Part shown: positions 3,774 to 33,716 of the stretch, in pieces
Numbering within the stretch: the stretch's first letter is position 1
Layout of the letters: the number at the start of each line of letters is the position of its first letter
Assembly (NCBI GenBank): GCA_040905865.1
Contig: JBBDQU010000028.1
Location: 1-41,550, forward strand
Direction of reading: 5' to 3'
Length of the DNA: 41,550 nt
Source: Alphaproteobacteria bacterium
Lineage (GTDB): Bacteria; Pseudomonadota; Alphaproteobacteria; UBA8366; GCA-2717185
Program-made: the position numbers and the translations under genes
The notes under the pieces: generated by a model
The model's input: only the letters and a program-made list of their open reading frames with translations
What the model was told of the DNA's origin: nothing
The model's database searches: none

Positions 3774-4814
3774 TCAAAACCAGTGCAGGCGGCGCAGCAG
3801 CAGCAGTTCGCCGGCCACCACGGCGACCAGTATCAGCGTCACGGTCGCAAAGGCCCAGGGCGACTCCGCGCCGGGGATCCCCGCGACATTGATGCCCAGC
3901 AGGCCCGTGATCACCGTCAGCGGCAGGAAAATACCGGCGACGACGGAAACGACAAACATGTTCCTGTTCATCTTTTCGTTCAGGTTGCTGCTCATTTCGT
4001 CCTGGACGAAGGTCGCCTTCTCCCGCGCGATATCGAGATCTTCCAGATAGCGGATCAGGCGGTCGGCGACGCCGCGCAGCAATTGCCGGTCGACCGGAGT
4101 CAGCCAGTCGACCGGTTCTCCCGTCAGCGCCGCCATGGCGTCGCGCTGCGGTGCGATATACCGGCGCAACCCGATTGATTCGCGCCGCAAATTGCGCAGG
4201 CTGGCGCGCAGGTCGTCCGGTTCCTCGGACAGCAGGTCCACCTCCAGCTGGTCGACCTGGTCGTTCAGGTCGTTGATGACCTGGCTCATGCGTTCGGTCA
4301 GCCGGTCGGTGATGGCGACGAGAAACTCGGAAGTCGTACGCGGCCCGACGCCGACTTCGAGATTTTCCTCGACATCCCGAACCGCCTTCAGGTTGCGGCG
4401 GCGAACGGTGATCACGCGGTCCGCTTCCGCCCAGATCCGGATCGACACCATGTCCGACGGATCGGCGCCCGGGTTGAGATTTACCCCGCGCAGGTTCAAC
4501 AGCACGCCCCCCTCATAGGAAAGACAACGGGGCCGCGATTCCTCCGCCAGCAGCCCCTGGGTCGCGACATCCGAGAGACCGGATACATCGCGGAGCCAGC
4601 GATGGACCGCCGGATAATTCCGGTCGAGTTGCACCCAGAAACAGGGCGCTTTCAGCTCGCCGCGCAGATAGGCGCCCGCATCCACAAGTTTCGCCCGGCC
4701 CGTGCCATCCAGCGCGCGGACGGAAATCCATTCCATCCTGTCGGCGCCGCCTGTAACGGAATCGTCGAATTCAGGCGCTTCGTATACAGGCTCTTCCGAT
4801 TCGCTCTCGCTCAT
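3774..4814 (-). CDS. zntB: CorA/ZntB-family divalent cation transporter
   Basis: A 346-residue protein with a long acidic and helical cytoplasmic N-terminal domain, a coiled-coil-like middle and two C-terminal membrane helices. Between the helices is the loop LLGINVAGIPG. CorA magnesium channels have GMN here, while ZntB zinc transporters have GIN, so ZntB-like zinc (or other divalent cation) transport is the better call. The family works as homopentamers in the inner membrane. The start at 4814 (MSESESEE) has a GGGGGG tract immediately upstream; an ATG six codons earlier (4832) is also possible. The gene lies 28 nt after the acyl-CoA dehydrogenase small subunit on the same strand, so it may be its operon partner by position rather than function. 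Confidence 0.85.
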   Translation of the reverse strand: MSESESEEPVYEAPEFDDSVTGGADRMEWISVRALDGTGRAKLVDAGAYLRGELKAPCFWVQLDRNYPAVHRWLRDVSGLSDVATQGLLAEESRPRCLSYEGGVLLNLRGVNLNPGADPSDMVSIRIWAEADRVITVRRRNLKAVRDVEENLEVGVGPRTTSEFLVAITDRLTERMSQVINDLNDQVDQLEVDLLSEEPDDLRASLRNLRRESIGLRRYIAPQRDAMAALTGEPVDWLTPVDRQLLRGVADRLIRYLEDLDIAREKATFVQDEMSSNLNEKMNRNMFVVSVVAGIFLPLTVITGLLGINVAGIPGAESPWAFATVTLILVAVVAGELLLLRRLHWF

Positions 4815-6014: not shown

Positions 6015-7211
6015 CTAAAGGCCCAATACCAGCTTGGCGATGATATTGCGCTGTATCTCGTTTGTGCCGCCATAGATCGTCGTCTTGCGCTTGTTGAAAT
6101 AGGCCGCCGCAAGGGGCGCCGCATCCGCCGGACCGACCGGGTCCTCGTTCCAGCCGTATTCCAGCGCATCGGGCAGCCAGGGCTGCGCGTAATAGCCCAT
6201 TGCCTGCATCAGGAGTTCCGAAATCCGCTGCTGGATTTCCGTGCCGCGCAGCTTCAGCAGGCTGGATTCGGCGCCGGGCGGGTTGCCGGCGGCGACCTGC
6301 ATCAGGTAGCGCAGGTCGGTATATTCCAGCGCCTGCAGTTCGATTTCGACTTCCGCGATCCTTGCCCGGAAATCCGGATCGTCGATCAGCAGGCGGCCGC
6401 CGGCTTTTTCCCGCGCCGCGATGTCCTTCAGCCGCCGGATCTGCGCCTTGGAATGGCCGACGCCGGCAGTGCCGGTGCGTTCGTGCTGCAACAGGAACTT
6501 GGCGTAGGTCCAGCCCCTGTTCTCGTCGCCGACCCGGTCGGCGACCGGCACCTTCACGTCGGTCAGGTGGACCATGTTGATTTCGCGGCCGCCATCGAAG
6601 GTGACGATCGGTTTGATCTCTATCCCCGGCTGCGCCATGTCGATCAGCAGGAAGGAGATGCCTTCCTGTTTCTTGCCCTCGGTGCCGGTGCGCACCAGGC
6701 AGAACATCTTCGTTGCCCATTGCGCCAGCGTGGTCCAGGTTTTGGTCCCGTTGACGATATAATGATCGCCGTCGCGCACCGCCCAGGTCTGCAGCGACGC
6801 CAGGTCCGAGCCCGCGCCCGGCTCCGAATAGCCCTGGCACCACCAGTCGTCATTGTTCAGGATGCGCGGCAGGTAATAGCTTTTCTGCGCGTCCGACCCG
6901 AAGGTATAGATGACGGGGCCGACGAATTTGGTGCCGAAGGGAATGACGCCAGGCGCTCCTGCCCGGCTGCATTCCTCATCGAAGATATAGCGCTGCACCG
7001 CCGACCAGCCGGTGCCGCCATATTCCGTCGGCCAGCCCGGCGCGATCCAGCCTTTCGCCGACAGGATATTCTGCCAGCGCTGGTGGTCGTCACGCGCCAG
7101 CCGAAGGCCGCGCGTCACCTTTTCACGAATATCCTGCGGCAGGTTCGCCGCGACAAAGGCCCGAACGTTGTTCTGGAATTCGCGATATTCGCCTGAAAAC
7201 GCCAGATCCAT
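6015..7211 (-). CDS. Acyl-CoA dehydrogenase, large subunit (PimC-like)
   Basis: A 398-residue acyl-CoA dehydrogenase. The start MDLAFSGEYREFQ at 7211 fits the family; 32 further upstream codons are open but look non-coding. Visible blocks are GYSEPGAGSDLA (substrate/FAD contact), KTWTTLAQWA and the C-terminal IYGGTNEIQRNIIA. In medium-chain enzymes the catalytic glutamate lies in the equivalent of YEGT; here that position is glycine, and the HERT glutamate in the middle of the protein is the likelier base, as in isovaleryl-CoA and long-chain types. The gene precedes the small subunit by 38 nt, a layout typical of heteromeric dehydrogenases for dicarboxyl-, sterol- or ring-derived CoA esters. 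Confidence 0.88.
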   Translation of the reverse strand: MDLAFSGEYREFQNNVRAFVAANLPQDIREKVTRGLRLARDDHQRWQNILSAKGWIAPGWPTEYGGTGWSAVQRYIFDEECSRAGAPGVIPFGTKFVGPVIYTFGSDAQKSYYLPRILNNDDWWCQGYSEPGAGSDLASLQTWAVRDGDHYIVNGTKTWTTLAQWATKMFCLVRTGTEGKKQEGISFLLIDMAQPGIEIKPIVTFDGGREINMVHLTDVKVPVADRVGDENRGWTYAKFLLQHERTGTAGVGHSKAQIRRLKDIAAREKAGGRLLIDDPDFRARIAEVEIELQALEYTDLRYLMQVAAGNPPGAESSLLKLRGTEIQQRISELLMQAMGYYAQPWLPDALEYGWNEDPVGPADAAPLAAAYFNKRKTTIYGGTNEIQRNIIAKLVLGL

Positions 7212-7357: not shown

Positions 7358-8857
7358 TCAGGCGTTACGGGTCTGGCCGCGAAGGTTCTGGAACAGCCGG
7401 AACAGTGGCGGGCCGACCCAGATCGCGATGGTCAGAACGCCCAGCGTGGCGGAAATCGGCCGGTCGAAGAAGATCATCGGATCGCCGCGCCCCTTGGCCA
7501 GCGAGTTGAAAAAATTCTCCTCCACCATCCGTCCCAGCACGATGCCGAGGATGGCCGGCGCAATGGGAATGCCGTTTTCCTCCATGAAATAACCCAGAAC
7601 GCCAAGCGCCAGCATCACCGTCACGCCCAGCAGCGAGGAGTTGATCGCGAAGGACCCGACGATACAGAACAGCAGGATAACCGGCACCAGCACTTCACGC
7701 GGCAGGGTAATGATATGCCGCGAGATCCGGATCGCCGCCCAGCCCATGGGAACCATCAGCAGATTGGCCAGGAAGAAGATGATGAACAGCGCATAGAGCA
7801 GGTCGCCCGCATGCATGAAGATGGTCGGCCCCGGCGTCATGCCCTTCATGAACAGCACGCCGATGACGATGGCCGTGATCGCATCGCCGGGAATACCGAA
7901 CACCAGCGCCGGTACCCAAGCCCCGCCAAGACCGGCATTGTTGGACGACGTTGCCTCGCACAGGCCTTCGGGATGCCCGGTGCCGAATTTCTCCGGCTCC
8001 TTGGAAAATTTCTTTGCGAACGCCATCGAGATCCAGGCCGCCATTCCGGCGCCCGCCCCCGGCAGGGCGCCGACGAGCACGCCGGTTGTCCAGCCGCGCA
8101 TCATGTTGATCTTGTAGCGCCAGAGAATTGGCATCAGCCCCGCAAAAATGGACCCGAGATTGGAAAGTTCGGCCCGCTTGTAAACCTTCATGGTCGATGC
8201 ATTGCGGATCAGTTCCGACACGGCGAACATGCCGATCATCGCCGGAATCAGGTCGATGCCGGCGGCCAGTTCCGGATTGCCGAAGGAAAAGCGGGGATAG
8301 CCGCTCATGATGTCTTCGCCGGTTGTCGCAATCATCAGACCGATCAGCAGCGAAACGACCCCCTTGACCGGCGACCCCGTTGTCACCAGCGCGGCGCAGC
8401 TGAGGCCGAGGCAGGCGAGCCAGAAATATTCGAGACTGGTGAAGTTCAATGCAAATTCGGCCAGTACCGGCGCGGATACCGCCAGCACGAGACTGCCGAC
8501 CAATCCGCCCAGCGCCGAACAGATGACGGCAATCCCGAGCGCCCGTTCGGGTTTTCCCGCCCGTGTCATGGCATAGGCTTCGTCGGTATAGGCGGCGGAT
8601 GACGGCGTTCCGGGAATTCGCAGCAGTGCGGCGGGAATATCGCCGGCGAAGATCGCCATGGCGCTACAGGATATGACCGCCCCGATGGCCGGCACCGCTT
8701 CCATGAAGAAGGTGATGGGAATGAGCAGCGCCGTCGCCATTGTCGCCGTAAGGCCGGGAATTGCGCCGACGAACAATCCGAAGATCGCCGCGCCGAAAAC
8801 CACCAGAAGAACATACGGATCGAAGACAAGCCCCAGGGCTATGACAAAATTTTCCAC
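7358..8857 (-). CDS. tctA: Tripartite tricarboxylate transporter, large permease TctA
   Basis: A 499-residue, very hydrophobic inner-membrane protein of the TctA family. It has about a dozen predicted membrane segments and family blocks such as GAIPGLTATMA near residue 29, RIPGTPSSAAY, and a second glycine/proline-rich loop (GALPGAGAGMAAW) in the second half, which shows the internal two-fold repeat of the family. TctA is the sodium- or proton-coupled channel of periplasmic-binding-protein-dependent carboxylate importers. It lies 35 nt after tctB. The binding protein TctC is not adjacent, so the substrate cannot be guessed; the binding protein may be encoded elsewhere, as is common for this family in proteobacteria. 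Confidence 0.93.
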   Translation of the reverse strand: MENFVIALGLVFDPYVLLVVFGAAIFGLFVGAIPGLTATMATALLIPITFFMEAVPAIGAVISCSAMAIFAGDIPAALLRIPGTPSSAAYTDEAYAMTRAGKPERALGIAVICSALGGLVGSLVLAVSAPVLAEFALNFTSLEYFWLACLGLSCAALVTTGSPVKGVVSLLIGLMIATTGEDIMSGYPRFSFGNPELAAGIDLIPAMIGMFAVSELIRNASTMKVYKRAELSNLGSIFAGLMPILWRYKINMMRGWTTGVLVGALPGAGAGMAAWISMAFAKKFSKEPEKFGTGHPEGLCEATSSNNAGLGGAWVPALVFGIPGDAITAIVIGVLFMKGMTPGPTIFMHAGDLLYALFIIFFLANLLMVPMGWAAIRISRHIITLPREVLVPVILLFCIVGSFAINSSLLGVTVMLALGVLGYFMEENGIPIAPAILGIVLGRMVEENFFNSLAKGRGDPMIFFDRPISATLGVLTIAIWVGPPLFRLFQNLRGQTRNA

Positions 8858-8892: not shown

Positions 8893-9375
8893 TCAGGGAC
8901 CGAAGACGACGGTTTCCAGGAGACCCCAGGGCAGTTGCACCAGCAGAAAGTCGACAAAGACAAAATGCATGCCAAGGGTGGTCACGACGGCGAGCAACGC
9001 GGCATGTAACGGTTTGAGGCCGAAGCGCAGTGCAAGCACCGTCAGGATGATCAGCCCCGTGATTATGAAGCCGAGAAAATCCGAAAACAGGATATAGAAA
9101 AGGATCGCCCCCGGAACGAGGAACACCGTAACGACGGTGCCGGGCTGGCGCCACCACTCGTCGAGCAGGACCCATGCCTGCCCGCCGGACCGTTCCTTGA
9201 TTCCCGTGTAGATAAGCGATATTCCACAGAGTGCGAGGCACACACATAACGTTTGCGGCCAGAATCCCGCACTGAACTGCATCCCCGTCAGTTGCGGGAA
9301 CGTCATCGAATAGGAAAATACCACGACTGCTATAATCAGTAATATCAGTCCGGTAATCGCATCATTTACGCGCAC
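8893..9375 (-). CDS. tctB: Tripartite tricarboxylate transporter, small permease TctB
   Basis: A 160-residue protein with four predicted membrane helices, starting MRVNDAITGLILLIIAVVVF, typical in size and topology for TctB. It assembles with TctA in the inner membrane. The start is GTG at 9375, supported by GGGGGGAGAGAA a few bases upstream; no ATG fits better. It is the first gene of the tctB-tctA pair. Upstream lies a gene-free stretch of about 730 nt, so the pair is transcribed from within that gap. Confidence 0.88.
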   Translation of the reverse strand: MRVNDAITGLILLIIAVVVFSYSMTFPQLTGMQFSAGFWPQTLCVCLALCGISLIYTGIKERSGGQAWVLLDEWWRQPGTVVTVFLVPGAILFYILFSDFLGFIITGLIILTVLALRFGLKPLHAALLAVVTTLGMHFVFVDFLLVQLPWGLLETVVFGP

Positions 9376-9921
9376 AAATTCTCTCCCCCCAAGGGCATTG
9401 CCGGTTGACCTGGAATGACAGCCGGATCGTTTGACTGGATGCTGTAACCGCCCGGGCTATTCGCTGCGGCGGCGTTCGTGTTCAAATGCTGCGTGAAATC
9501 GTCACCCTGCTGCCAGGGAATAGCCTCCCGTAAGTTTATATTAAACGGACTTTCCCCTGTAGCGTCAATGCAACGCTCGAGCATCGGCCCCCTCACGCGA
9601 CCAACAATGGAAATAGAGCATGCCGGGTCATGAATGTGAACCCGCCGGAAGTCAGTTCGCCACGAATAGGAACGTCAATTCCCGCATCCGTTAAAAGCCG
9701 TAAAATGAATTAGTTATGTAGACGTTCCGCATCATCGGACTTCCGCATGACGGATCAGGCACGAATTATTTTTTGCGCATGGCACATCACGTCGTGAGGC
9801 ATGCCTGTATACCGGGTGCCTTTCACTCGCGCACTGCGGGAAATTTCGGATTCAGCCTGTTCCCGCGCGCAGCTTGTATCGCTGGATCTCGCCGGTCGCC
9901 GTTCTGGGCCAACATTGAAAA

Positions 9922-9946
9922 CCGGCGCGTATGAAATACGCGCCGG
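9922..9946. repeat. Perfect 11-bp inverted repeat, 3-nt loop
   Basis: Arms CCGGCGCGTAT and ATACGCGCCGG around GAA form a strong hairpin on either strand. There is no T-tract on either side, so it is not an obvious intrinsic terminator. It lies 61 nt from another, longer hairpin (10007-10045). Confidence 0.7.
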
Positions 9947-10006
9947 CGAATCCGACCGATCGATGATCAAGGTATGATCGCGCATCCCGCCGCCTTTTCC
10001 GTAACC

Positions 10007-10902: not shown

Positions 10903-11796
10903 ATGTCACGCACCGCGATTTCATTCTATAGCGAGGGATTCAAGCTGGATGGCGACCTGTTCCTGCCCGAAGGCGCCGATAATGCCACCATGCGGGCGGG
11001 AATCGTGCTGTGCCACGGCTATACGGGGGTGAAGGATCTGTACCTGCCGGACAACGCGCGGGTCCTGACCGAGGCGGGCTACGCCGTCCTGACCTTCGAT
11101 TACAAGGGCTGGGGCAAGAGCGAGGGCCCGCGCAGCCGCCTTGCCCCGCACAGCCGGGTCGCGGATGTGCAGGCGGCAATGACCTTTCTCGGCGCGCAGC
11201 CCATGGTCGACGAGGACCGCCTAGGCCTCTACGGCACCAGCTATGGCGGCGCGACCGTGGTATGGACGGCCGCAATCGACGACCGCGCCAGATGCGTCGT
11301 CAGCGTCGTCGGCGTCGGCAATGGCGCGCGCTGGATGCGCAGCGTGCGGCGGCCGGATGAATGGGCCGACCTGCTGGACCGTTCGGCCCGGGATCGGGCG
11401 GCCCGGGCCGCCACCGGTCAGTCGGAGCAGGCCGGGCGCAGCGAAATCCTGCTTCCCGACCGGCAATCGGCTGAACTGGCGGCGGCGGCGCGCAAGAACA
11501 ACCCGAACGCCATCGACACGCTGCCGCTGGAATTCATCGACGACACGCTGGGCTTCAACGCCGAATGGGTGGTGGACAGGATCGCGCCGCGCCCGGTGCT
11601 GTTCATCACCAGCGACGATGACCGGCTGGTCCCGCCGGAGGAATCCGAAGCCATGTTCGCCCGCGCCGGCGCCCCGAAGAAGCTCGTCATGCTGGAAGGA
11701 TACGGCCATTACGAGGTCTATGCGGAGCCGGCGTTCAGCGAGGTCATGGCGGCGGCGACGGACTGGTACCGGGAATACCTGCCGCCGACAGAATAG
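10903..11796 (+). CDS. Alpha/beta hydrolase (dienelactone hydrolase or peptidase-like)
   Basis: A 297-residue alpha/beta-hydrolase. Visible elements are the oxyanion region LCHGYTG (residues 37-42), DYKGWGKSEGP, the nucleophile elbow GTSYG with Ser113, an acid-loop candidate DDDRLVPPEES and the histidine in GYGHYE. All three members of the catalytic triad are therefore likely present. A cap-like insertion lies between the elbow and the acid. The substrate is unknown; esters, lactones or short peptides are all within the family range. ATG 10903 is preferred to ATG 10876 because GGGAGG lies five bases before it. Confidence 0.85.
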   Translation: MSRTAISFYSEGFKLDGDLFLPEGADNATMRAGIVLCHGYTGVKDLYLPDNARVLTEAGYAVLTFDYKGWGKSEGPRSRLAPHSRVADVQAAMTFLGAQPMVDEDRLGLYGTSYGGATVVWTAAIDDRARCVVSVVGVGNGARWMRSVRRPDEWADLLDRSARDRAARAATGQSEQAGRSEILLPDRQSAELAAAARKNNPNAIDTLPLEFIDDTLGFNAEWVVDRIAPRPVLFITSDDDRLVPPEESEAMFARAGAPKKLVMLEGYGHYEVYAEPAFSEVMAAATDWYREYLPPTE

Positions 11797-11800
11797 GCAG

Positions 11801-11815
11801 CCCTGCCTCGCAGGG
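11801..11815. terminator. Small GC-rich hairpin between convergent genes
   Basis: CCCTGC and GCAGGG flank a CTC loop, five bases after the alpha/beta-hydrolase stop and before the convergent methyltransferase end at 11873. No T-run follows on either strand, so a terminator role is only suggested by position. Confidence 0.35.
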
Positions 11816-11872
11816 GACTATGGCACCTTCAATAAGATAGATCACATTTATGCGGCGTGACCGTGCCGGCGG

Positions 11873-12820
11873 TCATGCCGCGATCCTGCAGGCGTTGCAG
11901 ATCTGCTCCACATGGCGGTGATCGGTGCCACAGCAGCCGCCGAGAACCGTAATGTGCGGCAGGCGTTCCCGTATCGCCCGGTACTGGGCGCCGAGTTGGA
12001 CGGGATTTCCCTCGTCCAGTTCGGTCGAATTGTCGAGTTCCTCGTGGCTCCGGGTCGAGGCGTTGGCGCGAATGCCGCGCAGCCGCTTGAGCCACGCCGC
12101 GTCGGTCCGCAGGGCATCGTCGAAATGGGTCGGATGCGCGCAGTTGACCATATAATACACCGGCGCGCTGTCGGTCAGGGCATCGACGGCTTCGACGGCT
12201 TCGCCCAATGTCTGGCCGGTCGGAATCCGCCCGTCGGTTTCGGTCGTGAAGGATATGACGGACGCAATATTCGCGGCCCGCGCGGCGAGGGCGATGCCCG
12301 CGGCCTCGCCGACATGGGTCATGGTCATCGTCGTGACCAGGTCCGCGCCGGCTTCGACGAAGGCATCGATCTGGTCGCGATGATATGCCGCCGCTTCGTC
12401 CGGGGTCATCGTGCTCTCAGGTCTGTAGCCGTCGCCACGCGGACCGATATTCCCGCTGATCACCATCTTCGTGTCGGCGGTTTCATACCGGTCGCGCAGC
12501 GCCATCATGAAGCGGACCGCATCCTGGTTCGCCTCTGCGAGACGCTCACGGTCGTAGCCAAGCCTGGCTGCCCAGTCGGGGTTGGCCCGCCAGGTTGGCG
12601 TCTCCATGATGAAGCCGAGCCTGTTATCGAGAGCGATCCTGATATGGCGTTCCATGTAGCGCGTCACCTCTTCCCGACCAGCGTCGGTTTCCAGCAACGG
12701 AAACACGGCGAATTCCGGCATGTCGATTCCCTGCTGGAAGAACAGGAATGTCTCCAGCCCGCCGTCTGTCAGGAACATATCGCCTTTCAACTGCGGTAAA
12801 CCGTTTCGGTACTTGCTCAT
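11873..12820 (-). CDS. Homocysteine S-methyltransferase family protein
   Basis: A 315-residue single-domain protein of the zinc-dependent homocysteine methyltransferase family. The substrate/metal blocks FLTDGGLET near residue 16, VNCAHP in the last third and GGCCGTDHRHV near the end supply the three cysteines that bind zinc in characterised members. Family members transfer a methyl group from S-methylmethionine, betaine or another donor to homocysteine; the donor here is not predictable. ATG 12820 has AGGAG seven bases upstream. It is divergent from a TetR-family gene (start 13056), so control by that regulator is plausible. Confidence 0.88.
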   Translation of the reverse strand: MSKYRNGLPQLKGDMFLTDGGLETFLFFQQGIDMPEFAVFPLLETDAGREEVTRYMERHIRIALDNRLGFIMETPTWRANPDWAARLGYDRERLAEANQDAVRFMMALRDRYETADTKMVISGNIGPRGDGYRPESTMTPDEAAAYHRDQIDAFVEAGADLVTTMTMTHVGEAAGIALAARAANIASVISFTTETDGRIPTGQTLGEAVEAVDALTDSAPVYYMVNCAHPTHFDDALRTDAAWLKRLRGIRANASTRSHEELDNSTELDEGNPVQLGAQYRAIRERLPHITVLGGCCGTDHRHVEQICNACRIAA

Positions 12821-12912
12821 CTGTTTTCTCCTGTTTCGCGTGGCAGGCGATCCTGCCAGGGGAGGGGAAAATAGGATCAATGGAACCCCGCGAGACAGTG
12901 GACTCGTGGTCC

Positions 12913-12961
12913 GGGTTCTACTCTTTTTCGTTTTCTTCGATATATCAAAGCAGTAGAACCC
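12913..12961. repeat. Ten-bp inverted repeat with 29-nt spacer
   Basis: GGGTTCTACT (12913-12922) and AGTAGAACCC (12952-12961) are exact reverse complements in the divergent intergenic region between the methyltransferase and tetR genes. The 39-bp centre-to-centre distance is close to four helical turns, which would suit paired half-sites of a looping regulator, but the arms may also be chance. Confidence 0.45.
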
Positions 12962-13008
12962 TGCTTGCGGATGGGACGAAGCCTTGGCCCGGAAACCGTG
13001 GAATGCAG

Positions 13009-13025
13009 CTGTACCTGTGGTACAG
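13009..13025. promoter_or_regulatory. Candidate TetR operator
   Basis: CTGTACC-TGT-GGTACAG is a perfect palindrome with seven-base arms and a three-base centre, ending 30 bp before the tetR start. Size, symmetry and position are those of a typical TetR-family autoregulatory operator. It could control both tetR and the divergent methyltransferase gene. Confidence 0.65.
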
Positions 13026-13055
13026 TAACGCCGTTCTCGAAAGCAGGTGAGTCTG

Positions 13056-13688
13056 ATGACGGAAACCGATACCCGGCAGGGACCGGGGAAGAGCACGCGC
13101 GAGATGCTGCTCGACGCCGCCGAAGCGGCTGTCCTGGAAAAGGGATTCGCCGGGACGTCCATCGATGAACTGATCGCCGCCGTGGGTATCACCAAGGGCG
13201 GGTTCTTCTATCACTTCAAGGACAAGGGGGCCTTGGCCAGAACGCTTCTGGAGCGTTATATCCAACGGGAAGACCTGTTGTTCGACGAGCTTTTCGGCCG
13301 CGCCGACGAACTGAACGAAGACCCGCTGCACGGCTTCCTGGTAGGTCTCAGGATGCTGGCGGAAGTGATGGAGGATCTGCCGGCGGGACATCCCGGCTGC
13401 CTCATCGCATCCTACACCTATCAGGAGCGGCTGTTCGATCCCGAAGTCCGCGCCATCAACACAGCCGCAGTCCTTAACTGGCGCAAACGGTTCAGCGACC
13501 GGCTCCACCTGATCGCGGCGCGATATCCGCTGCGGATCGATGCGGATATCGAGGACATGGCGGACATGCTGTCCGTTATCGCCGATGGCGGAATCATCCT
13601 GTCGAAGGCGGTCGGCGACAAGAGCCTGCTACCCCGCCAGATCATGCTGTACCGGGACTTCATCCGCACCGCCTTTACCGGTAATTGA
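13056..13688 (+). CDS. TetR/AcrR family transcriptional regulator
   Basis: A 210-residue regulator. The N-terminal helix-turn-helix (about residues 17-60: TREMLLDAAEAAVLEKGF, then SIDELIAAVGITKGGFFYHF) is canonical, and the rest is a helical ligand-binding domain with the GCLIAS segment common in one AcrR-like subgroup. The ligand is unknown. ATG 13056 is preferred; GTG 13047 in the same frame would add three codons. A 17-bp palindrome lies 30 bp upstream and probably serves autoregulation. The divergent methyltransferase gene is the natural candidate target. Confidence 0.9.
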   Translation: MTETDTRQGPGKSTREMLLDAAEAAVLEKGFAGTSIDELIAAVGITKGGFFYHFKDKGALARTLLERYIQREDLLFDELFGRADELNEDPLHGFLVGLRMLAEVMEDLPAGHPGCLIASYTYQERLFDPEVRAINTAAVLNWRKRFSDRLHLIAARYPLRIDADIEDMADMLSVIADGGIILSKAVGDKSLLPRQIMLYRDFIRTAFTGN

Positions 13689-13699
13689 CCGACCGGTCA
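13686..13699. repeat. Short palindrome over the tetR stop codon
   Basis: TGACCG-AC-CGGTCA is a 14-bp interrupted palindrome whose first three bases are the tetR stop codon. It has the look of a TetR-type half-site pair but differs from the upstream operator, so it may simply be part of the 3' hairpin between the convergent genes. Confidence 0.35.
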
Positions 13700-13758
13700 G
13701 CAGAGCGCGTTCATCCAGGACAGCGGCGTTATCTGATTGTCCCCATCCTGCAACGGCC

Positions 13759-14037
13759 CTAACCGACAAAGCCCCGATAGGGTATGGCGCCGTACATTTC
13801 CACTTCCAGCATGCCCTCCTGCACCAGCGGCAGCGAGTCGATATAGGATTGCGCCTCGGCCTCATCGACGGCCTCGAGAACCAGGATCGCGCCCTTGCCG
13901 TCGGCCCGGCTGTAAATTTCGCGGACTTTCTGCTCCCCATACAGCACCCGGGCGCGCTGCGCTTCCGCATCCAGGACGGGCGCGAACTGATCCATAGTGA
14001 ATTCGGCTTTACGCGTGGCGACGGCAAAAAATTTCAT
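13759..14037 (-). CDS. YciI / muconolactone-isomerase-like small protein
   Basis: A 92-residue protein with the pattern of a single ferredoxin-like alpha/beta fold: MKFFAVATRK at the start, a central GAILVLEAVDEAEAQ strand-helix unit and a closing LPLVQEGMLEVEMY strand. This matches small YciI-related and muconolactone-isomerase-like proteins, which often dimerise and act on ring-cleavage products or have unknown roles. The family choice is uncertain because both share this layout. It is in line, on the same strand, with the broken box genes upstream, which would fit a past role in aromatic breakdown, but a 143-nt gap with a long hairpin separates them. Confidence 0.65.
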   Translation of the reverse strand: MKFFAVATRKAEFTMDQFAPVLDAEAQRARVLYGEQKVREIYSRADGKGAILVLEAVDEAEAQSYIDSLPLVQEGMLEVEMYGAIPYRGFVG

Positions 14038-14130
14038 CGGTCGATCCTCCCGGACCAGATCATGGTTTGCTGGAATCGCCTCCGGCTATCCAGCAGCCAT
14101 GTGGATCTGATCCATCTTACTGACGATATT

Positions 14131-14167
14131 GCACCTTCACAGGTTCAAATGGAACCTGTGAAGGTGC
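14131..14167. repeat. Perfect 16-bp hairpin downstream of the boxB fragment
   Basis: GCACCTTCACAGGTTC and GAACCTGTGAAGGTGC are exact reverse complements around a five-base loop. It lies 14 nt beyond the stop of the boxB fragment and 94 nt before the next minus-strand gene. A perfect 16-bp stem this close to a stop suggests a terminator or a mobile palindromic repeat. No T-tract follows on the minus strand. Confidence 0.65.
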
Positions 14168-14180
14168 TGTGGCCTGCCTG

Positions 14181-14513
14181 TCAGTGAAACCGCACATAGT
14201 CGTAGTCGAGCGGCTGACCGTGGATGCCCCGGCGCGGCGGGGCAATCCATCCGGCCATGCGGCCCGGCTCGGTGACCGGAACCATCAGCGAATTGACGTA
14301 TTCATGATCGGCCGGCGTCGGCAGCCATTCACCCCGCCGCCGCGCCCATTCGGCTTCGTCGATCACCTGCCCCGCCGGTGTCGCGTGGATGCCCGCAAAA
14401 GCGCCGATGCTCCGGTTGAACGCCGCGTGGGGCAGCGTCAGTTCGAAATCGATGCCGTGGTCGCGGATGCCCCTGTTGAACCGGTCGACGCCGCGCTGGC
14501 TGTTATCGGCCCG
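14181..14513 (-). pseudogene. boxB: boxB 3' fragment (benzoyl-CoA 2,3-epoxidase subunit B)
   Basis: About 110 codons, open but without a proper start, that read as the C-terminus of BoxB, the di-iron oxygenase subunit that epoxidises benzoyl-CoA. Recognisable pieces are QRGVDRFN, IDFELTLPHAAF, IGAFAGIHATP, EAEWARRRGEWLPTPADHEY and the ending WIAPPRRGIHGQP ... YDYVRFH. BoxB is normally about 475 residues, so roughly three quarters, including the iron-binding centre, is missing. It abuts the truncated boxC in a different frame at about 14515. It cannot encode a working epoxidase. A GTG at 14366 could start a 61-residue product, but no ribosome site supports it. Confidence 0.75.
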
Positions 14514-15337
14514 CGCACCGTGAAAGCGGCAACGCCGTCGTCGCGGTCCAGCGCGATGGTCAGCGTGCCGTAGCGGATGTCGTCGCCCCTGATCTCCCGG
14601 GCCAGCGGCGTCAGTTCGATCCCCGCACCCGCCGCCGGACGCTCCGACGCGGCGGCGAATGCCGCCGCCCGCGCCCGCGCGGTTTCCCGCATTGCCGAGC
14701 GCGACGCCAGTTCATCCACCAGCCCCCAGTCCAGCGCCCGCCGGCCCCGCATGCCCTCGGTCACAGTGCAGAAGAAATCGGCCCGGTCGCGCCGGACATG
14801 GCGCTTGTCGACAACGCGCGTCAGCCCCCCGGTGCCGGGCAGAACCGCCAGCATCGGCACTTCCGGCAGCGATATGGCGCTGGCGCCGTCATCGACGAGG
14901 ATAATATGGTCGGTCGCGAGCGCCAGTTCATAGCCGCCCCCCGCCGCCGTTCCGGCGATGGCGGCAACATAGCGCTGGCCGGAAAACTTGCTGGCATCCT
15001 CCATCCCCAGCCGCGTCTCGTTGGTGAATTTGCAGAAATTCACCTTCTCCGCATGGGTCGCGCCGCCCAGCATGGCGATATTGGCCCCGGCGCAGAACAC
15101 CCGTTCCTGCGCCGACGTCACCAGGACGGCGCCGACTTCGGGATGCTCGAAGCGCACTCGCTGAATGGCGTCGTAGAGTTCGATATCGACACCCAGATCA
15201 TAGGAATTCAGTTTCAGCGCGTAGCCCGGTTGCAGGCCGCCGTCTTCATCCACGTCCAGAATCAGGGTGGCGACCGCGCCGTCGATCTGCAGGGTCCAGT
15301 GCCGGTACCGGTCCGGATGGGTCGTAAAGTCGATCAT
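14438..15337 (-). pseudogene. boxC: boxC 5' fragment (2,3-epoxybenzoyl-CoA dihydrolase)
   Basis: The open frame encodes 299 residues. The first 275 or so match the N-terminal half of BoxC, a crotonase-fold enzyme that hydrolyses 2,3-epoxybenzoyl-CoA: THPDRYRHW, LKLNSYDLGVDIEL, VFCAGANIAMLGG, VNFCKFTNETR, GGGYELALA, LPGTGGLTRV and DKRHVRRD. Intact BoxC is about 555 residues. After residue ~277 the sequence turns into an Ala/Ser/Thr-rich shadow of the boxB fragment frame, which marks the deletion joint near 14515. The ATG overlaps the COQ9 stop (ATGA), so the fragment may still be translated by coupling. Without its C-terminal half it is unlikely to be active. Confidence 0.8.
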
Positions 15338-15990
15338 GTGCGAGGCGCGGGCCGCGTCACATTGCGCAGTATCCGGAACGGGTCCGGCAGGCGCCCGGCG
15401 AGCCTGCCGATTCCGGCCAGCGCCTTCGGAATCCGCATCACTTCCGCGATGCGGCGGTCAAGGAATGCCCAGGTCGTGGCGAAACCCTCGGAATTGTCGT
15501 TCAGCCAGCACAGCAGCGTCGCGCCATAGACCCCGGCCAGCAGGCCGCGCTTGGTATAGAAATTGTGATCGGTCGACGTATCGCCCGCCGCGTGCCACAT
15601 CGCATCGACGGTGCGGTACAGGAGCCGTGTCGCAAGGCCGCCGTTCTGCGGCAGCGCGAGCAGCGCCAGCGCGCGGCGGATCGCTTCGCGATGCGCCATG
15701 TTCTGTTCCAGGCGGACCCGCACCGCTGTCGCGATCCTGTCGCGTATTTTCATCGATTCCAGGCCGCGTTCCGCCAGTTCCTCCAGCATCAGCCGGTCGG
15801 CATAATGGCTGTGACAGGCGATCAGGTCCGGCGCGCCCTGCGGAAACAGTCGCCGCGCCGTCGCCGCGTCATATCCCGCATCCGCCGCGCCGCGCAGCAA
15901 TGACGCCTCGCCCCAGCCGTCGAACGGCACATGGGACATGGCGGCGAGCATGATGGCGGTGCGCATGGCACCGGCATCGCTTTTGGTCAT
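15334..15990 (-). CDS. coq9: COQ9 family protein (ubiquinone biosynthesis)
   Basis: A 218-residue helical protein of the COQ9 family. It has an N-terminal TetR-like helical part (HVPFDGWGEASLLRGAADAG) and the C-terminal block with YRTVDAMWHAAGDTSTDHNF followed by YTKRGLLAGVYG, which carries the family's WxxAGD...DxxxYTKR pattern. COQ9 is a lipid-binding partner of the ubiquinone hydroxylase COQ7 in mitochondria, and alphaproteobacterial homologues are assumed to act likewise. AGGAGG lies eight bases before the ATG, and the deformylase stop lies inside that same stretch. The neighbourhood def-coq9 with divergent rpsU is typical for this class. The last four bases overlap the boxC fragment start. 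Confidence 0.9.
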   Translation of the reverse strand: MTKSDAGAMRTAIMLAAMSHVPFDGWGEASLLRGAADAGYDAATARRLFPQGAPDLIACHSHYADRLMLEELAERGLESMKIRDRIATAVRVRLEQNMAHREAIRRALALLALPQNGGLATRLLYRTVDAMWHAAGDTSTDHNFYTKRGLLAGVYGATLLCWLNDNSEGFATTWAFLDRRIAEVMRIPKALAGIGRLAGRLPDPFRILRNVTRPAPRT

Positions 15991-16002: not shown

Positions 16003-16548
16003 CTATTCATCTGCGATATCGTCCGGATTTTCCATATAGTGCCGCAGTTCCTCGCGGAACATGAGAGTTCCGAGATCGGTCATGCGCTGCGGATACAATA
16101 TGCCGTCCAGGTGATCGCATTCATGCTGCACCACCCGCGCATGGAATCCGCTTGCGGTGCGCTCGATCCGTTCGCCCGCTTGCGTGTAGGCCGAATAGCG
16201 GATGTTTTCCCAGCGCGGCACCAGGCCGGTCAGGCCGGGAACCGACAGGCAGCCTTCCCAGTCGGTGCCGGTCGCTTCGCCAAGCGGTTCGATTTCCGGA
16301 TTGATGAGAACCGTCATCGGCACGGTGTCCGCGGCGTTTGCATCCCGGTGTGACGGCGCATGGAAGACCACGACCCGCAATGGCACATGCACCTGCGGCG
16401 CCGCCAGCCCCGCCCCCTGCGCATCCGCCATGGTTTCCACCATGTCGGCGATCAGCCTCGCGATGTCGGGGGCTGTCGGATCCGCGACCGGCGCGGCCAC
16501 GCGGCGCAGCACGGGATGCCCCATCCGGGCGATTTTCAGTATGGCCAT
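16003..16548 (-). CDS. def: Peptide deformylase
   Basis: A 181-residue cytoplasmic metalloenzyme that removes the N-formyl group from new proteins. All three signature motifs are present: GAGLAAPQ (residues 45-52), EGCLS with metal ligand Cys100, and HECDH (142-146), which supplies the two histidines and the catalytic glutamate. There is no Shine-Dalgarno sequence before ATG 16548; instead a -35 TTGACA and a -10-like CATATT place the transcription start at or near the ATG, suggesting a leaderless message. The stop is 12 nt before coq9. Many genomes carry several def paralogues, so this need not be the only one. Confidence 0.94.
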   Translation of the reverse strand: MAILKIARMGHPVLRRVAAPVADPTAPDIARLIADMVETMADAQGAGLAAPQVHVPLRVVVFHAPSHRDANAADTVPMTVLINPEIEPLGEATGTDWEGCLSVPGLTGLVPRWENIRYSAYTQAGERIERTASGFHARVVQHECDHLDGILYPQRMTDLGTLMFREELRHYMENPDDIADE

Positions 16549-32238: not shown

Positions 32239-33441
32239 CTAGCTCCTTGCCGCCGCCAATGCCCGGGCGAGATCGTCGCAGATATCAAGCGGGTCTTCCA
32301 GCCCGACGGACAGGCGCACCACGCCGCCACTGAGACCCAGGGCCGCGCGTTCCTCCTCGCTCAGCCGCTGATGGGTCGTCGTCGCCGGATGGGTGACGAG
32401 GCTTTTCGTATCGCCGAGATTGTTGGATATATCGATGATTTCCAGCGCGTTGAGACATTTGAACGCGGCGGTCTTGCCGCCCGTCAGTTCGAAGGTGACC
32501 ATAGTGCCGCCGCCGCTCATCTGCTTCTGCGCCAGTTCGTATTGCGGATGCGATTTCAGCCCCGGATACAGCACCCGCGTCAGGCCCGGCTGGTCCGACA
32601 GGAATTCCGCGACCTGCAACGCGTTCTCGCAGGCCTGCCGCACGCGGATATCCAGCGTCTCCAGCCCCTTGAGGAAAATCCACGCGTTGAACGGGCTGAT
32701 CGACGGGCCGGTATGGCGCATGAACTGGTTCAGGTGATCGTCGATGAACTGCTGCCGGCACAGGATAGCGCCGCCCATCGCGCGACCCTGCCCGTCGATA
32801 TGCTTGGTGGCGGAATAGACCACGATATCGGCGCCCAGTTCGAGCGGCCGCTGCAGCATCGGCGTGGAAAACACGTTGTCGACAATGACGGTCGCGCCCT
32901 GCGCGTGGGCCAGCTTCGCCACCGCCGGCAGGTCGATGATTTCCAGTAGCGGGTTGGTCGGCGTCTCCAGGAAGACGCAGGCTGTCGGGCGGTCCAGCGC
33001 CGCTTTCCATTCATCCAGGTTGCAGCCGTCCACGACCTTCGTTTCCACGCCCAGGCGCGGCAGGATATCGGTGATGATATACAGGCAGGAGCCGAACAGC
33101 GCCCGCGACGCCACGACATAGTCGCCGGCCTTCACGAAGCACGCCATCGAGGCGAAGACGGCGGCCATGCCGCTGGCGGTCGTGCGGCAGGCTTCCGCCC
33201 CTTCCAGCAGGCAGAGCCGTTCCTCCAGCATGGCGGTGGTGGGATTGGCGTAGCGCGAATAGATGAAGCGCTTCACATCGCCCTTGAACGCCGCCTCCGC
33301 GTCTTCCGCCGTGCGGTAGACATAGCCCGACGTCATGAACAGCGCTTCGCTGGTTTCCTCGAACCGGCTGCGCTGCAGCCCGCCACGCACCATCCGGGTT
33401 GCGGGGCGCCAGCGCTCGTTGTTGCTTTCTCTCTGGGTCAT
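32239..33441 (-). CDS. metZ: O-succinylhomoserine sulfhydrylase
   Basis: A 400-residue PLP enzyme of the Cys/Met metabolism family. The PLP lysine is Lys213 in SATKHIDGQGR, and VFLETPTNPLLEIID and the N-terminal SRYANPTT block are typical. MetZ makes homocysteine from O-succinylhomoserine and sulfide in the cytoplasm. The start at 33441 (MTQRESNN) has a GGGAG upstream. A 16-bp palindrome and a small hairpin lie in the upstream region. No SAM-II riboswitch was recognised. Confidence 0.92.
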   Translation of the reverse strand: MTQRESNNERWRPATRMVRGGLQRSRFEETSEALFMTSGYVYRTAEDAEAAFKGDVKRFIYSRYANPTTAMLEERLCLLEGAEACRTTASGMAAVFASMACFVKAGDYVVASRALFGSCLYIITDILPRLGVETKVVDGCNLDEWKAALDRPTACVFLETPTNPLLEIIDLPAVAKLAHAQGATVIVDNVFSTPMLQRPLELGADIVVYSATKHIDGQGRAMGGAILCRQQFIDDHLNQFMRHTGPSISPFNAWIFLKGLETLDIRVRQACENALQVAEFLSDQPGLTRVLYPGLKSHPQYELAQKQMSGGGTMVTFELTGGKTAAFKCLNALEIIDISNNLGDTKSLVTHPATTTHQRLSEEERAALGLSGGVVRLSVGLEDPLDICDDLARALAAARS

Positions 33442-33472
33442 CTCGTGCCACTCCCTTATCGTCAAAGAATGA

Positions 33473-33495
33473 CCGGGGCACAAAAATAGCCCCGG
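33473..33495 (-). other. Leader hairpin upstream of metZ
   Basis: CCGGGGC and GCCCCGG around a nine-base A/T-rich loop, about 32 nt upstream of the metZ ATG. It may affect translation or attenuation; no riboswitch class fits. Confidence 0.3.
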
Positions 33496-33511: not shown

Positions 33512-33527
33512 CTTGAATCGATTCAAG
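33512..33527. promoter_or_regulatory. Perfect 16-bp palindrome upstream of metZ
   Basis: CTTGAATCGATTCAAG is its own reverse complement, 71 nt upstream of the metZ start. On the minus strand it overlaps a TTGACT box. It resembles an operator; the TGAA/TTCA half-sites recall MetR (TGAA-N5-TTCA) but with a 4-nt spacer, so the regulator is open. Confidence 0.5.
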
Positions 33528-33716
33528 TCAACCTTTTAGCCGTTGTTTTTACGTGGCCGCAATCCGGTCGGACAAATCACCACGAACAGGTAAACGATTA
33601 CCGCGCCGGGACATGCCCGTCAACCGGGAAGATCAAGCGTCATGTTTTCGTATGACTCGGTTTCGCCGGGAATGGTATGACCGGCACTCCCGCAAACCAC
33701 ACCGGACAGGCGCGCC

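Follow-up and report, generated by a model that had tools for sequence, protein, structure and literature searches.

Between the genes for a TetR-family regulator and Coq9, the window (the whole stretch of 41,550 nucleotides that was analyzed) carries the beginning of boxC followed by the end of boxB. This arrangement raises the question of whether the aerobic benzoyl-CoA (box) pathway has truly been lost at this locus and, if so, by which events. The reading that we favor, with a probability of roughly 0.8, is a recent two-hit loss of the pathway by two real deletions. One of these would have run from inside boxC to inside boxB and the other would have fallen within the gene for benzoate-CoA ligase, after which the pathway would have been either not needed or selected against.

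Remnants of boxC and boxB are joined out of frame

The features at the box junction and beside it are the following.

13047 to 13688, plus strand: gene for a TetR-family regulator (PF00440), convergent with the boxB remnant; its aligned part is common to relative G001
14181 to 14503, minus strand: boxB remnant, the last ~107 codons and the stop, without a start codon, in a different frame from boxC
14504 to 14506, no strand assigned: junction, a 3-nt filler (TAT) where relatives carry 1916 bp
14507 to 15337, minus strand: boxC remnant, the start codon and residues 1–276, comprising the N-terminal crotonase domain
14438 to 15337, minus strand: chimeric open reading frame of 299 amino acids, 276 BoxC residues and an out-of-frame tail through the boxB remnant
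15334 to 15990, minus strand: coq9, intact, with an ATGA overlap with the start of boxC (TIGR02396, 184 bits)
16003 to 16548, minus strand: def (peptide deformylase, PF01327), intact and common to relatives

The open reading frame at 14438–15337 (minus strand) matches positions 1–285 of the 548 positions of the BoxC model TIGR03222 with 461 bits. The boxC remnant scores 371 bits against PDB 2w3p and is 88.5% identical, across 279 residues, to BoxC of G001, a relative of the same genus. Positions 365–471 of the 471 in the BoxB model TIGR03225 are matched by 112 codons at 14184–14519 (minus strand) with 142 bits, and the boxB remnant, which ends with a TGA stop at 14181–14183, is 94% identical to residues 365–471 of G001 BoxB. 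Both remnants fall short of the curated cut-offs: boxC in the window misses the 712.3 bits of TIGR03222 (548 positions), where the full-length G001 ortholog scores 890 bits, and boxB, without a start codon, reaches 142 of the 499.1 bits set for TIGR03225. The C-terminal second crotonase domain of BoxC is deleted, as are BoxB residues 1–364, so that the di-iron ligands of BoxB, which we take to lie at residues ~120 to 243, are missing. The two remnants occupy minus-strand frames −3 (boxC) and −2 (boxB), and their old reading frames are uninterrupted by any stop.

DNA alignment to G001 places the switch between the two genes at 14503/14507. Window position 14507 corresponds to position 6499 of the G001 locus L137 and 14503 to position 4582, leaving 1916 bp missing. 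Alignment to a second same-genus relative, G003, gives identical values of 1916 bp missing and 3 bp inserted, and the corresponding boxC–boxB interval is 1936 bp in G002 and 1940 bp in G005. The first-pass annotation of this DNA had proposed a deletion scar joining ~275 residues of BoxC to ~110 residues of BoxB near 14515, in another frame, with a loss of ~1.9 kb; the domain matches and the clean breakpoints against both relatives bear this out, with measured lengths of 276 and ~107 residues. The TAT at 14504–14506 agrees with the sequence of neither flank, whether that of G001, G003, or G005, a comparison that scores the filler against the sequence of relatives, from which the true ancestor may differ.

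Relatives of the same genus retain the ancestral order

The gene order in both G001 and G003 is coq9–boxC–boxB, so that the side-by-side arrangement that had been supposed for the ancestor is seen directly. Both boxC (549 amino acids) and boxB (471 amino acids) are whole in G001, where contig C31 contains JAQCHR010000065.1 (metagenome-assembled 'Proteobacteria bacterium', casp40-mb.248). The ATGA overlap of coq9 with boxC noted earlier is likewise present there (L137 7326–7329). It had also been proposed that a related genome with intact boxC and boxB would point to an assembly collapse. Such a genome was obtained, but G001 is a different species, with ~85–91% DNA identity to the window here, and shows the ancestral arrangement rather than a collapse. 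The boxB gene of G003 is whole, and its boxC carries a 1-nt frameshift near codon 172 (L139 ~9475); the frameshift falls in a C-rich run and could reflect either a sequencing error or a separate loss within the genus.

The searches covered 59 genomes, the window's own and 58 relatives. BoxB exceeds its curated cut-off in 23 of the 59; of the 10 other genomes in the family, 9 are among these 23. Relatives of boxC reach an E value of at most 1e-60 likewise in 23 of the 59 genomes, a count that includes the own genome. The exception among the ten is G004 (95% complete), the only other family genome without boxB and boxC matches at the thresholds used, perhaps through an independent loss. In G010, boxB is present at contig position 174 and no boxC match was found at E 1e-60.

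The benzoate-CoA ligase gene carries a second scar

A second scar lies at 9909/9910, 4.6 kb from the box deletion, where the benzoate-CoA ligase gene is short of 1453 bp in comparison with both G001 and G003. The features on this side of the window are as follows.

7358 to 8857, minus strand: TctA transporter gene, beyond the ligase remnant (PF01970, 433 bits)
8893 to 9375, minus strand: TctB transporter gene (PF07331, 57 bits)
9852 to 9909, minus strand: 3′ part of the benzoate-CoA ligase remnant, the last 18 codons and the stop, from alignment to relatives
9910 to 9985, minus strand: 5′ part of the benzoate-CoA ligase remnant, the start codon and the first 25 codons, from alignment to L137 and L139

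The junction is blunt, and the two pieces are mutually out of frame. At the same place, G001 and G003 have full-length ligase genes that score 635 and 637 bits with TIGR02262; the remnants in the window do not reach the cut-off of 375.25 bits. Among 11 family genomes, 6 have a ligase above this cut-off, and the own genome is not one of the 6. Partial matches occur in G002 (287 bits) and G008 (327 bits), G004 reaches 301 bits, below the cut-off, and G007 has no ligase match at E 1e-80. The G005 ligase (G005:C20:11976-13484, L284) contains one in-frame TAA. The TctB region also adjoins the ligase gene in G003, with window 9010–9391 corresponding to L139 567–947 at the DNA level.

Because the breakpoints are collinear with G001 and G003 and the missing lengths, 1916 and 1453 bp, are identical against both, and because boxB and the ligase exceed their cut-offs in other genomes of the family, these data argue for loss of a pathway that the lineage possessed. 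As far as the searches go, benzoate activation and ring epoxidation have both been lost. The first-pass annotation had the pathway broken through boxC and boxB; with the ligase gene cut as well, a scar absent from that account, the loss is larger than claimed, and the earlier description covers half of the damage.

The junctions carry no direct repeats above chance level

Within 50 bp, direct repeats between the two flanks reach 8–9 bases at most, and random pairs of places in the same sequences give up to 9–10; neither junction therefore has a direct repeat beyond chance. The genome encodes Ku (299.6 bits, cut-off 150). Blunt or filler junctions without a repeat, together with Ku, fit repeat-independent DNA end joining, which we infer as the mode of joining; it was perhaps Ku-dependent, although joining by other repeat-independent routes would leave similar junctions. 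Repeat-free junctions also argue against deletion between homologous repeats and against collapse of a repeat by the assembler.

It is very unlikely that a mobile element, or a homologous or dispersed repeat, drove the losses. Such an origin is suggested by the IS1380-family transposase that adjoins the ligase gene in G003 (L139 1179–2549), and by a strong hairpin repeat at 14053–14170, ~330 bp from the box junction. However, family searches found no transposase among the neighbors tested, alignment shows the insertion sequence of G003 to be missing between window positions 9391 and 9868, and neither junction coincides with the hairpin repeat.

The remnants show no detectable decay

The boxC remnant and the boxB tail lie at synonymous distances of 0.33 and 0.40 from G001, and the coq9, hydrolase, and MR_MLE genes at 0.37, 0.29, and 0.27, respectively. 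The aligned part of the TetR gene gives 0.59, and def gives 0.82, measured on 107 codons with a broken reading in G001. Of the codon changes in the remnants, those assigned to the window branch comprise 16 synonymous and 10 nonsynonymous, and those assigned to the branch of G001 comprise 22 and 11 (Fisher P 0.79); set against coq9 and the hydrolase on the window branch, the remnants give P 1.0. Thus, the comparison of synonymous and nonsynonymous changes detected no decay of the remnants, and we infer that the two deletions happened recently in comparison with the divergence from G001. On the branch leading to the window, nonsynonymous changes in the boxC fragment (5 of 15) stay below the number expected had the whole branch been neutral (P 0.0013), and the boxB tail is likewise below expectation, weakly (P 0.03); its nonsynonymous changes, 5 on the window branch and 1 on that of G001, are too few to weigh. 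Recent deletion is a simpler reading than retention of both fragments, given that the boxB tail lacks a start codon.

The low count of nonsynonymous changes in boxC could also be taken to mean that the fragment was kept as a working single-domain crotonase, with translation coupled to coq9 and activity in another reaction. The fragment retains the start codon, the coq9 overlap, and the N-terminal domain, which aligns to 2w3p, as well as C102, E137, and E159, presumably the catalytic residues of BoxC, which are invariant in seven aligned sequences. However, a recent deletion alone would give the same figures, the fragment carries an out-of-frame tail at its end, and its pathway partners, the ligase among them, are gone, which makes a kept gene highly improbable. 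An AlphaFold model of the fragment, built from a seven-row alignment, had a mean pLDDT of 39 and was unusable. BoxC has two crotonase domains, and a review places the active center in the N-terminal domain alone and names two glutamates there (PMC4498308). We take the BoxC fragment to be a probable pseudogene with a small chance of kept function. It may still be translated behind coq9, although this route would supply it with no substrate.

The two scars could further represent one coordinated step: after the loss of one of the linked steps, selection would have quickly removed the other, since benzoyl-CoA or epoxide that is not consumed does harm, and the N-terminal domain of BoxC would have been spared and retained as an independent crotonase downstream of coq9. 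We consider this very unlikely.

Cuts inside genes appear rare elsewhere in the assembly

Recent deletions leave remnants that look as fresh as working genes, and so would an artefact of assembly or strain mixture, in which misjoins or minority deletion variants were assembled while boxC, boxB, and the ligase gene are whole in the cells. The background of cuts bears on this alternative. The comparison set about 1.22 Mb of the genome against 21 stretches of G001 and 20 of G003, and the aligned pieces sum to 66 kb and 105 kb. Gaps of at least 300 bp numbered 21 in ~171 kb of alignment, 11 in this contig and 10 outside it. Open reading frames of the relatives were covered by less than 80% in 15 of 146 cases considered, antisense frames included: three are box genes, two are antisense frames that belong to this locus by position, and ten are others. 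At 11 of the 21 gaps, the frames listed were mostly a whole frame between the edges, corresponding to whole-gene or intergenic differences, and one gap (L230 6474–6922) may cut into a 412-amino-acid frame. The ligase scar itself is missing from both counts, its leftover pieces being too short for the filters. These figures suggest a background of gene cuts that is low, although not zero by demonstration. No cut other than the box and ligase scars could be shown to fall within a gene identified by family.

That both deletions fall within one 41.5-kb contig is a further point in favor of an artefact. Against it, there is no shared junction sequence for an assembler to collapse, no displaced second copy was found in the genome, and the assembly is not visibly riddled with cuts, with the gaps examined mostly at gene edges. 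We therefore regard an artefact as unlikely, and two real deletions as the better account. Two deletions in one pathway without decay are a coincidence in any case, one that an artefact or strain mixture must also explain.

No second set of box genes or replacement route was found

A search of the own genome with the BoxB tail returned the tail as its sole match, with no other boxB. The BoxC fragment found itself and then ordinary crotonases at no more than 44 bits, with no other full BoxC-like gene. No benzoate-CoA ligase exceeded the cut-off (best 199.8 bits against 375.25). Of boxB and boxC, the own genome thus shows the remnants alone. It comprises 85 contigs, and absences within it rest on one assembly; the assemblies of the genus relatives are fragmented as well, with 60–540 contigs, and are 64–88% complete.

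A BoxA search had also been called for. BoxA was not found in the own genome, but its absence is not part of the event, since it is found at E 1e-30 in 0 of the 59 genomes, carriers of boxB included. Among 12 control genomes, selected through their BoxC loci, the same model detected BoxA in 7: six are betaproteobacterial by name and one is a Rhodobium. Two Bradyrhizobium are among the five negatives. A loss of boxA along with the other genes was accordingly rejected. By these profile matches, boxC and boxB without a recognizable BoxA appear to be the usual state of this lineage, which raises the question of the reductant of BoxB in the relatives.

A BenA-like oxygenase was considered as a replacement route for benzoate and rejected, with a best score of 418 bits against a cut-off of 781 (TIGR03229). 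Its BenB-like neighbor is below the cut-off, and no benzoate genes were found among nine open reading frames tested around it. No clear replacement route is thus apparent from the TIGR03229 search and the nine-frame neighborhood.

Relation to known systems

The remnants and their full-length orthologs match TIGR02262, TIGR03225, and TIGR03222, as expected for the benzoate-CoA ligase, BoxAB epoxidase, and BoxC dihydrolase of the box pathway. The window differs in having all three genes cut, and the family in having no BoxA match. Pseudogenization in bacteria by repeat-independent deletion leaves blunt or short-filler junctions inside genes, with the neighbors untouched, and the window departs from this pattern only in having two such scars in one pathway. 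The case is one of ordinary gene loss in kind, unusually clearly resolved.

Incomplete Box clusters have been described, with partial box sets beside or apart from benzoate-CoA ligase and one alphaproteobacterial case, Ferrovibrio (PMC10803450). There, clusters are judged by gene presence, whereas in the window the cut points are known to single-base precision and extend to the ligase gene. A search of open-licence literature found no paper on this locus or on paired box and ligase deletion scars. The locus offers a base-level view of a compact aromatic-acid pathway dismantled with its neighbors whole, both committed steps having been cut in a seemingly short time. Fragment-based calls of gene presence, from the BoxC-like frame of 299 amino acids or the BoxB tail, would wrongly credit the organism with benzoate degradation.

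Other elements in the window

Window positions 11796–13094 and 13685–14182 are missing from the corresponding place in G001. A gene for homocysteine S-methyltransferase lies in these stretches, together with a 92-amino-acid open reading frame without a Pfam match. The dispersed hairpin repeat at 14053–14170 is ~107 bp long, gives no Rfam match at the gathering threshold, and recurs at 26 further places in its own genome, with copies in G001, G003, G005, G007, G009, and G010. A SAM_alpha riboswitch (RF00521, 59.8 bits) is found at 33516–33593 (minus strand), upstream of a 414-amino-acid open reading frame at 32239–33483 (minus strand).
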